64,000 nucleotides of DNA from Neobacillus cucumis. GTDB lineage: Bacteria; Bacillota; Bacilli; Bacillales_B; DSM-18226. Below, one piece after another: positions 57,971 to 60,081 of the stretch (its first letter is position 1; each line of letters begins with the position of its first letter). The notes beneath the pieces were generated by a model. That model was not told where the DNA came from. It did no database searches and saw only the letters and a program-made list of their open reading frames with translations. The DNA lies in the NCBI RefSeq assembly GCF_016107705.1, contig NZ_JAEHGC010000005.1, forward strand, positions 124,001 to 188,000, given 5' to 3'. The position numbers and the translations under genes were made by a program.

Positions 57971-59278
57971 ATGAAAGAAATGACAGTTAATGTTATTGGA
58001 GCAGGACTTGCCGGCAGTGAAGCAGCCTGGCAAATTGCGAAACGAGGAATTAAAGTTCACCTTTATGAAATGCGGCCTGTTAAGCAAACTCCTGCTCATC
58101 ATACAGATAAATTTGCAGAATTGGTCTGCAGTAATTCCTTGAGGGCAAACACCTTAACAAATGCTGTTGGTGTGTTAAAGGAAGAAATGCGAAAGCTTGA
58201 TTCCGTCATTATCGCGGCAGCGGATGCCTGCTCAGTTCCTGCTGGTGGTGCTTTGGCAGTTGATCGGCATGAATTCGCGGCAAAAGTAACAAACTTGGTT
58301 AAAAATCATGAAAATGTTACGGTCATTAATGAGGAAGTAACTAAAATTCCTGAAGGACCGACAGTAATTGCAACGGGACCGCTGACAAGTCCTGAACTTT
58401 CAGCGCAGTTAAAGAATTTAACAGGTGAAGAATATCTTTATTTCTATGATGCTGCAGCACCAATTATTGAAAAAGAAAGCATTGACTTGGATAAGGTATA
58501 TTTAAAATCCCGTTACGATAAGGGAGAAGCAGCGTATTTAAATTGTCCGATGACAGAGGAAGAATTTAACCGATTCTATGAAGCATTAATTTCTGCTGAA
58601 ACCGTTCCATTAAAAGAATTTGAGAAGGAAATTTTTTTCGAAGGCTGTATGCCAATTGAAGTAATGGCGGCTAGGGGAAAGAAAACGATGCTCTTTGGCC
58701 CTTTAAAGCCAGTTGGTTTAGAAGACCCGAAAACAGGGAAAAGACCTTTTGCAGTTATTCAGCTAAGGCAGGATGATGCGGCAGGAACATTATTTAATAT
58801 TGTTGGATTTCAAACTCACTTAAAATGGGGTGCACAAAAAGAGGTGCTCAGCCTTATACCGGGGCTTGAAAATGCTGAAATTATTCGTTATGGAGTTATG
58901 CACCGGAATACATTTATTAATTCCCCTAAGGTTTTGAGAGCCACCTATCAATTCCGTGAGCGGGAGGATTTATTTTTTGCAGGGCAAATGACCGGGGTGG
59001 AAGGATATGTTGAATCAGCAGCTAGCGGATTAATTGCCGGAATCAACGCATCCCGCTTAGTTGAAGGGAAAGAAACGTTGGAGTTTCCTGGTGAAACCGC
59101 AATTGGAAGTATGGCACACTATATTACCACCACGAATGCGAAAAATTTCCAACCGATGAATGCAAATTTTGGACTTTTTCCTGAATTACCTGTCAAAATT
59201 AAGGGGAAACAAGAGAGAAATTTACAGCATGCAAATAGAGCGCTAGAAACAATTCAGAACTTTATGAAAGTTTTGTAA
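57971..59278 (+). CDS. trmFO: methylenetetrahydrofolate-tRNA (uracil-5-)-methyltransferase
   Basis: Folate/FAD enzyme making m5U54 in tRNA (formerly gid). Length 435 residues. N-terminal FAD loop [13 protein letters not shown] (about 8-20), [18 protein letters not shown] (about 52), and cysteine motif [13 protein letters not shown] (about 223). AGGAGGACA ribosome site. In B. subtilis the next gene is xerC/codV; here only a remnant follows. Confidence 0.98.
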
Positions 59279-59284
59279 AATTCC

Positions 59285-59313
59285 TTGCAAGGCTTATGGA
59301 AGTATGTTACGAT
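59285..59313 (+). promoter_or_regulatory. promoter before the xerC remnant, probably serving hslVU-codY
   Basis: TTGCAA (59285-59290), 17 bases, TACGAT (59308-59313), directly after trmFO. An inverted repeat GCAAGGC (59287-59293) / GCCTTGC (59321-59327) brackets the -10 region and could be an operator or simple hairpin. Confidence 0.6.
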
Positions 59314-59338: not shown

Positions 59339-59461
59339 ATGATAAATGTGAATGTTTTATTAACATTCTATCTCGATTATTTACAAATAGAGAAGAATTA
59401 CTCAAAATATAGAATTGAACATTTTCAACATGATTTTAGTACATTTATTGTTCACGTTTGA
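59339..59461 (+). pseudogene. xerC: N-terminal remnant of tyrosine recombinase XerC (CodV)
   Basis: A 40-codon open frame at the exact place of xerC/codV in related genomes. The segment YLDYLQIEKNYSKYRIEHF aligns by eye with the first helices of the Bacillus XerC core-binding domain (YLQIEKNYSQYTI in B. subtilis, from memory). It ends in TGA after FIVHV, where the intact protein continues for about 260 more residues. No catalytic domain (Arg, HxxR, Tyr) occurs before hslV, which starts 77 bases later, so most of the gene has been deleted. Whether the 40-residue peptide is translated is unknown; the ribosome site is weak. Confidence 0.88.
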
Positions 59462-59538
59462 ACAAGGAGTTCACGATGCTTTTTCATTGTTGGGTTAATC
59501 GGAAAAAAGAAAACTCCAAAAGAGGAGGGTTTTAATTA

Positions 59539-60081
59539 ATGGAGCAATTTCATGCTACTACGATTTTTGCGGTTCACCATAAAGGTGAATGTTCGATGTC
59601 AGGTGATGGGCAAGTCACATTTGGAAATGCGGTTGTAATGAAGCACACAGCAAGAAAAGTGAGAAAGATTTTTAATGGCAGAGTATTGGCCGGTTTTGCT
59701 GGATCTGTTGCGGATGCTTTTACATTGTTTGAGTTATTTGAAGGTAAACTTGAAGAATATAATGGAAACCTTCAAAGAGCGGCAGTTGAACTTGCTAAGG
59801 AATGGCGCAGCGATAAAATGCTGCGAAAGCTCGAAGCGATGCTGATTGTTATGAATCGAGAAAGCTTGCTGCTTGTTTCCGGAACAGGAGAAGTCATTGA
59901 GCCAGATGATGGTATACTTGCGATTGGTTCCGGCGGCAATTATGCCTTAGCTGCGGGGCGCTCTTTAAAGAAATACTCAGGGGATCATTTATCTGCTAAA
60001 GAAATTGCTAAAGCTTCTTTAGAAATAGCTGCTGAAATATGTGTGTATACGAATCACAATATTATTGTGGAAGAGCTATAA
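59539..60081 (+). CDS. hslV: ATP-dependent protease peptidase subunit HslV (ClpQ)
   Basis: Proteasome-like peptidase that forms a dodecamer with HslU caps. ATG at 59539 with AGAGGAGGG ahead. Length 180 residues. [22 protein letters not shown] and [14 protein letters not shown] are conserved. The N-terminus [12 protein letters not shown] lacks the serine directly after Met that is reported as nucleophile in B. subtilis ClpQ, so the Thr of the ATT segment is the likely nucleophile after propeptide removal, as in most HslV proteins. Confidence 0.97.

Follow-up and report, generated by a model that had tools for sequence, protein, structure and literature searches.

What resolves chromosome dimers in a bacterium whose xerC gene has been cut down to its first codons? 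XerCD/dif is among the most conserved of bacterial machines, and the window analysed here, a stretch of 64,000 nucleotides, carries between trmFO and hslV a frame that an initial annotation took for the first 40 codons of xerC with the catalytic domain missing. That annotation proposed that dimers are resolved by XerD alone, by a relocated xerC or by another recombinase, and that the leftover frame marks a recent deletion or is kept as a leader peptide or for its promoter. Comparison across Neobacillus, a group of soil bacteria, makes it quite likely that a recombinase of the XerS family took over dimer resolution, that xerC became dispensable and was deleted, that one arm of dif was rewritten, that XerD was kept as a DNA-binding unloader of SMC, and that the xerC stub decayed.

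The frame lies at 59339..59461 on the forward strand and translates as MINVNVLLTFYLDYLQIEKNYSKYRIEHFQHDFSTFIVHV, followed by a stop; intact xerC in Neobacillus species occupies the corresponding position, with gene order unchanged, and begins TNVNVFLKLFLEYLQMERNYSKYTIEHYQHD. On the same strand it is preceded by intact trmFO (57971..59278), which stands in the ORF list and keeps its gene order in relatives, and by a probable sigma-A promoter of the former xerC-hslVU-codY operon, TTGCAA-17-TACGAT (59285..59313), recognized from its sequence and conserved columns. The first intact gene past the deletion is hslV (59539..60081, forward strand, also from the ORF list). Compared as DNA, the window's gap aligns over its initial 188 bp, a segment that takes in the promoter, with the beginning of the gap in N. 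terrae, and does so beyond chance (78%, E 2e-38, in a five-gap database); the whole gap measures 257-260 bp, compared with 1053-1059 bp in six Neobacillus with an xerC gene there. Position, DNA homology and gap length thus confirm the initial annotation in its core: the segment is similar to xerC, its catalytic domain is gone, and xerC was deleted here. By themselves the 40 residues are too short for family assignment, the best Pfam matches being DUF7893 (16.6 bits, cut-off 27) and then Phage_int_SAM_1 (14.3 bits, cut-off 22.3), both below cut-off, with no match in PDB or NCBIfam. The translation, its homology and position, the lack of a catalytic domain and the decay seen in relatives characterize the frame as an xerC pseudogene remnant. 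An inverted repeat from the xerC coding sequence, TTGTTCA-CGTT-TGAACAA, lies at the end of the stub (59448-59465), at the deletion edge. The nearest genome among those compared is G001, with 97% identity over this stretch, and judged by its relatives the window belongs in or next to Neobacillus.

Of the 57 Neobacillus genomes measured, 52 have a trmFO-hslV gap of 157-465 bp, which cannot accommodate xerC; the other four of the 61 genomes have no trmFO beside hslV and were left out (in these, G068, G007, G067 and G072, loci L404-L407, trmFO was not found within 11 kb around hslV). The six Neobacillus with an xerC gene are G012, G022, G028, G074, N. terrae (G086), whose gene is intact, and G073, where the gap is of full length but the xerC frame is broken and xerD has two stops, so that assembly errors are possible. 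An XerC model scored above its cut-off in 7 of the 61 genomes, three of these matches being XerD proteins that score higher with the XerD model; a true XerC, above cut-off and better matched by the XerC model, occurs only in G012, G022, G028 and G074. The same two models revealed no relocated or second xerC in the 61 genomes, matches lying only at the gene's own locus, and the idea of a relocated gene falls with this result. Matches of about 200 bits belong to a multi-copy tyrosine recombinase family of approximately 280-310 residues found across the genus, several members of which have an internal stop. Among the best 80 named trmFO loci, 75 are not from Neobacillus (BSR1-1 being counted as Neobacillus), and in 72 of those 75 an XerC-like frame is open over nearly its full length; the exceptions are Terrilactibacillus laevilacticus (none), Metabacillus niabensis (none, with hslV not beside trmFO) and Listeria aquatica (a 209-codon piece). 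The deletion junction is alike in many clades, 5' homology stopping near gap position 190 and resuming at 906-931, and remnants of the xerC 3' end persist in several clades. On these junctions and remnants the xerC deletion is judged old and genus-wide, and the gap alignment of relatives speaks against the recent deletion that had been suggested.

The remnant frame itself has decayed in most relatives. Among 53 xerC-less gaps compared, the window included, a stop interrupts the stub frame in 38, and 15, again with the window, have no stop through codon 39; only one passed a strict test that asked for a start codon, absence of indels and a frame open through codon 39. In the window, G001 and G003 the 40 codons are open but contain small indels relative to the reference. 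When the window is compared with G003, pS is 0.094 and pN 0.138 in the stub, against pS 0.508 and pN 0.012 in hslV; compared with G001, the stub has two changes, both nonsynonymous. Frame and start are therefore not kept, nor is pN below pS, as a conserved leader peptide would have it, and that proposal is not borne out. Across the pairs tested, the stub stretch diverges between species at approximately 0.5-0.65 of the hslV four-fold rate with no codon signature, and the stretch alignable to the xerC 5' end (59339..59466, forward strand) is probably constrained only as a DNA or RNA leader. A TTGCAA-17-TACGAT-like promoter is retained in 51 of the 53 gaps, which suits the suggestion that the region is kept for its promoter; a scan with a generic promoter consensus did not list this element, and an Rfam search of the leader for known RNA elements gave a single sub-threshold match (17.1 bits, gathering threshold 40). 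The stub is best read as the decayed 5' end of xerC behind the hslVU-codY promoter; it would have been left in place because it follows that promoter and forms the leader of hslVU-codY, not a peptide gene.

Of the options raised for dimer resolution, another recombinase fits. XerS is encoded in 58 of the 61 Neobacillus genomes at 79-100% identity (G073, G074 and G081 lack a match), as one copy per genome with an open frame. The G001 protein, the one scanned, matches the NCBIfam equivalog NF003462 at 403.5 bits (cut-off 267), the others being assigned by identity, and such Neobacillus proteins are already named XerS in public databases. Catalytic motifs were recognized by pattern in 56 of the 58, and the two without a pattern match, G014 and G026, deviate by a single Val next to the motif. 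All 39 genomes with completeness of 90% or more and contamination of 5% or less carry XerS, and 36 of these have no xerC; G081, xerC-less and without a XerS match, is 94% complete in 720 contigs. The gene adjoins the old dif site at 33-65 bp in 55 of 56 xerC-less genomes (53 plus two more read separately), and in these 55 the site follows xerS on the opposite strand. In G006, the genome in which the terminus was placed by GC skew (20 samples), xerS at 2.770 Mb coincides with a sign change from +0.090 at 2.72 Mb to -0.017 at 2.80 Mb, another sample being near zero at 0.66 Mb. G074, which keeps xerC and has no XerS, encodes another XerC-like recombinase (L102:1687-2631; 238.9 bits, cut-off 335.15) that starts roughly 160-220 bp from dif. 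Through its relatives, the window's own genome presumably shares the xerC-less state with XerS.

The site beside xerS, located through synteny with that gene, is a dif with one arm changed. The XerD arm, TTATGTWAAC, is kept in 55 of 55 xerS-linked sites of xerC-less genomes, the arm being part of one search pattern, whereas the XerC arm is canonical in none of these 55 and kept in 6 of 6 Neobacillus with an xerC gene (Fisher p 2e-8, treating the genomes as unrelated). At the place of the XerC arm the 55 sites average 2.5 matches out of 11, against 9.9 for canonical sites, and allowing the best of five spacers raises this to 5.6, compared with 4.8 for shuffled sequence. The new left arm is closer to an inverted XerD arm, with 7.4 matches out of 11 (shuffled 3.7) at a 5-bp spacer, the best fit among spacers of 3-8 bp, which gives a layout of 11 + 5 + 11 bp, or about 27 bp. 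The gain in symmetry is modest, since in canonical dif, with its 6-bp spacer, 6.4 of 11 positions already agree with the inverted XerD arm. The left arm is also less conserved than the XerD arm, which was itself in the search pattern, and TTCC is present in 2 of the 55 sites over the 30 bp searched. No canonical dif with up to three mismatches was found in the 56 xerC-less genomes; these species have neither the XerC protein nor the XerC arm of an XerCD/dif system. A separate search for a palindromic XerD-XerD site by pattern gave 30 places in 25 of 61 genomes and 24 in the reversed control, too close to be pursued.

Rewritten and canonical sites are flanked by the same inverted repeat (GTCTCA ... 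AAGTATACTT ... TGAGAC), also present at dif of B. inaquosorum and B. tequilensis, and are therefore the same locus. The repeat, allowing one mismatch, lies beside dif or the dif-derived site in 20 of 33 genomes and is a possible accessory element; in L320-L323 and L327-L342 it reads GTCTCA-n-CTTAAGTATACTT-n-TGAGAC, around position 1500 and about 20 bp outside the XerC arm. A whole dif is found in G012, G073, G074 and G086. That G022 and G028 have no dif was considered and rejected: their XerC arm is present, and the XerD arm is split by an inserted element. Sequence with GGGGCGTT interrupts the XerD arm in G022 (L337), G028 (L340), Lederbergia lenta (L322) and Bacillus sp. FJAT-29937 (L328), and these insertions probably represent a mobile element family inserting at dif.

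XerD has taken a different course from XerC. Its model scores above cut-off in 60 of the 61 genomes, yet of the 56 xerC-less ones 26 have lost K172 and 6 have lost H244, 28 genomes being affected in all. Residues carry their E. coli names and were located through their motifs, with an alignment to E. coli XerD (1a0p). All six catalytic residues are intact in the other 28, including G001, next to the window, and in 4 of 4 xerC-bearing genomes; R148, R247, H270 and Y279 are kept in 56 of 56, so XerD may retain some catalysis. A bait similar to B. subtilis XerD recovered 120 matches, three of which are shared with the G012-XerD set and counted there; all 117 others retain the six residues, as do those three, in a set of Bacillus, Metabacillus, others by name and many metagenome sequences, taken without regard to xerC state. 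Among 120 matches nearest the G012 XerD, many from Neobacillus and again taken without regard to xerC state, K172 is lost in 33 and H244 in 1. Parsimony on the species tree counts 8 changes at K172 and 3 at H244. The His two residues past the Tyr is kept in 117 of 117 of the bait set and 4 of 4 xerC-bearing genomes, and changed in 50 of 56 xerC-less ones.

The DNA that XerD would bind has been retained beyond dif. An exact XerD-arm pattern occurs at 96 places, against 16 in the reversed control; three were dropped (G073 and G074, without XerS), and of the remaining 93, 38 are on other contigs and 12 are the dif site. The 43 others are on the xerS contig, and 42 of them are oriented towards dif; xerC-bearing genomes account for five of the 43. 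Thirteen sites are found at a distance of 28-36 kb from xerS, on its dif side, both in species with xerC and in species without it, so that some of the sites are orthologs and cannot count as independent. XerD is reported to act as an SMC unloader in B. subtilis (Karaboja 2021, as cited in the excerpts of PMC12322038, PMC8242196 and PMC11898615), and Neobacillus resembles that species in keeping XerD together with XerD-arm sites around the terminus. The polarity of the sites fits the same role, in which case SMC unloading would, by analogy, be the main or sole job remaining to XerD in Neobacillus.

Taken together, dimer resolution in most Neobacillus would have passed from XerC and XerD to one XerS-family recombinase encoded beside dif and acting on the rewritten site, with the XerC arm remade as an inverted XerD-like arm. 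XerD, probably no longer a recombinase, would be retained with its dif arm and terminus-pointing sites most likely for SMC unloading, its catalytic residues going in many species. Alternatively, XerS may have replaced XerC only, working on the new left arm while XerD cleaves the right arm as the other half of a mixed pair. Such a pair would suit a XerD arm conserved in 55 of 55 sites and a XerD whose Tyr and Arg residues are kept in 56 of 56 genomes (all six in 28 of 56); it is nevertheless unlikely, given that half of the XerD proteins (28/56) have lost the catalytic Lys or His and that streptococcal XerS is described in the excerpt of PMC5357621 as acting alone. A very improbable alternative is neutral drift, with xerC lost, Xer dimer resolution given up and XerS being the integrase of an element parked at dif. 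XerS does adjoin canonical dif in xerC-bearing relatives, mobile elements do sit in dif of G022, G028 and two others, and the XerS and species trees disagree, but in 55 of 55 cases the site has been rewritten and is conserved, which is more than decay, and XerS is found in 39 of 39 of the more complete, less contaminated genomes, of which 36 have no xerC. That XerD alone, as a homotetramer, resolves dimers on a more symmetric dif with XerS as a passenger, the first option of the initial annotation, is more improbable still despite the 7.4 of 11 matches to an inverted XerD arm, given the K172 and H244 losses in half of the xerC-less genomes, the lower conservation of the left arm relative to the XerD arm of the search pattern, and a XerS that is single-copy, high in identity and open, has its catalytic motifs and is linked to the site.

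On the order of events in the presumed XerS takeover the trees disagree. A first tree, built from short DNA, had outgroups within the genus and gave way to a later one, in which the MAG bin73 (L123) falls between N. terrae and the remaining Neobacillus. On the species tree, several nodes of which are weak, G012/G022/G028, G073 and G074 sit inside branches of xerC-less species, and irreversible loss requires nine losses of xerC; the alike junctions favour one old deletion with locus exchange, or a wrong tree, over many independent deletions. Neobacillus XerS proteins group with two database proteins in a single clade (printed support 80), and their branching departs from the species tree, so the xerS-dif module was probably exchanged. 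Among 42 named genomes eight matches to XerS were found, three of them at 66% identity or more: Metabacillus niabensis, ISL-80 and Terrilactibacillus laevilacticus. Canonical dif lies beside the XerS gene in M. niabensis, where xerC was not found at the trmFO locus, and in ISL-80, where xerC is intact. G012 likewise has both xerC and xerS, with canonical dif 97 bp after xerS, and adjacency alone is therefore no proof of takeover. In T. laevilacticus (66% identity) the site by xerS has the XerD arm and not the XerC arm, and the trmFO locus holds no XerC-like frame; judged by these sequences, it is a parallel case outside Neobacillus.

The closest known counterpart is XerS/difSL of streptococci and lactococci, which the excerpt of PMC5357621 describes as a single XerS-family recombinase beside its site, with no dimer resolution by XerCD. 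The Neobacillus system is similar in the NF003462 match of the G001 protein and in the position of the gene beside the site in 55 of 55 cases. However, difSL is given there as 31 bp with an 11-bp centre, whereas the Neobacillus site is about 27 bp with a 5-bp centre, its inverted arms fitting best at that spacer among the 3- to 8-bp ones compared. The Neobacillus site is moreover derived in place from canonical dif with its XerD arm retained, and XerD is still full-length. With XerCD/dif of Bacillus it shares the kind of locus, the XerD arm and the flanking inverted repeat, as seen at the B. inaquosorum and B. tequilensis loci; unlike there, XerC is deleted, its arm rewritten, and XerD catalytic residues are lost in many species. 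The B. subtilis proteins go by the names CodV and RipX. In Lactobacillus helveticus DPC 4571, XerCD and XerS occur together and were proposed as a possible evolutionary intermediate, the one such case named in the excerpt of PMC3025954, which reports no dif found for XerS and asks for study of alternative machinery. In Neobacillus, by contrast, the site can be traced, and XerCD only, both systems, and XerS without XerC are all seen. A B. cereus paper mentions XerS (PMC4876114), and the replacement of XerC by XerS in Neobacillus was not reported in the titles and abstracts searched, a search that most subscription papers lie outside.

On balance, we lean slightly towards seeing in this one genus the stages before, during and after a XerS takeover, in which dif was rewritten in place, xerC was deleted and XerD is turning from a recombinase into a non-catalytic, terminus-binding SMC unloader. 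Neobacillus lines up in close relatives the states through which a lineage may shift to a single recombinase, and the XerD retained in xerC-less species would separate, by nature's own experiment, its part in recombination from its part in SMC unloading.
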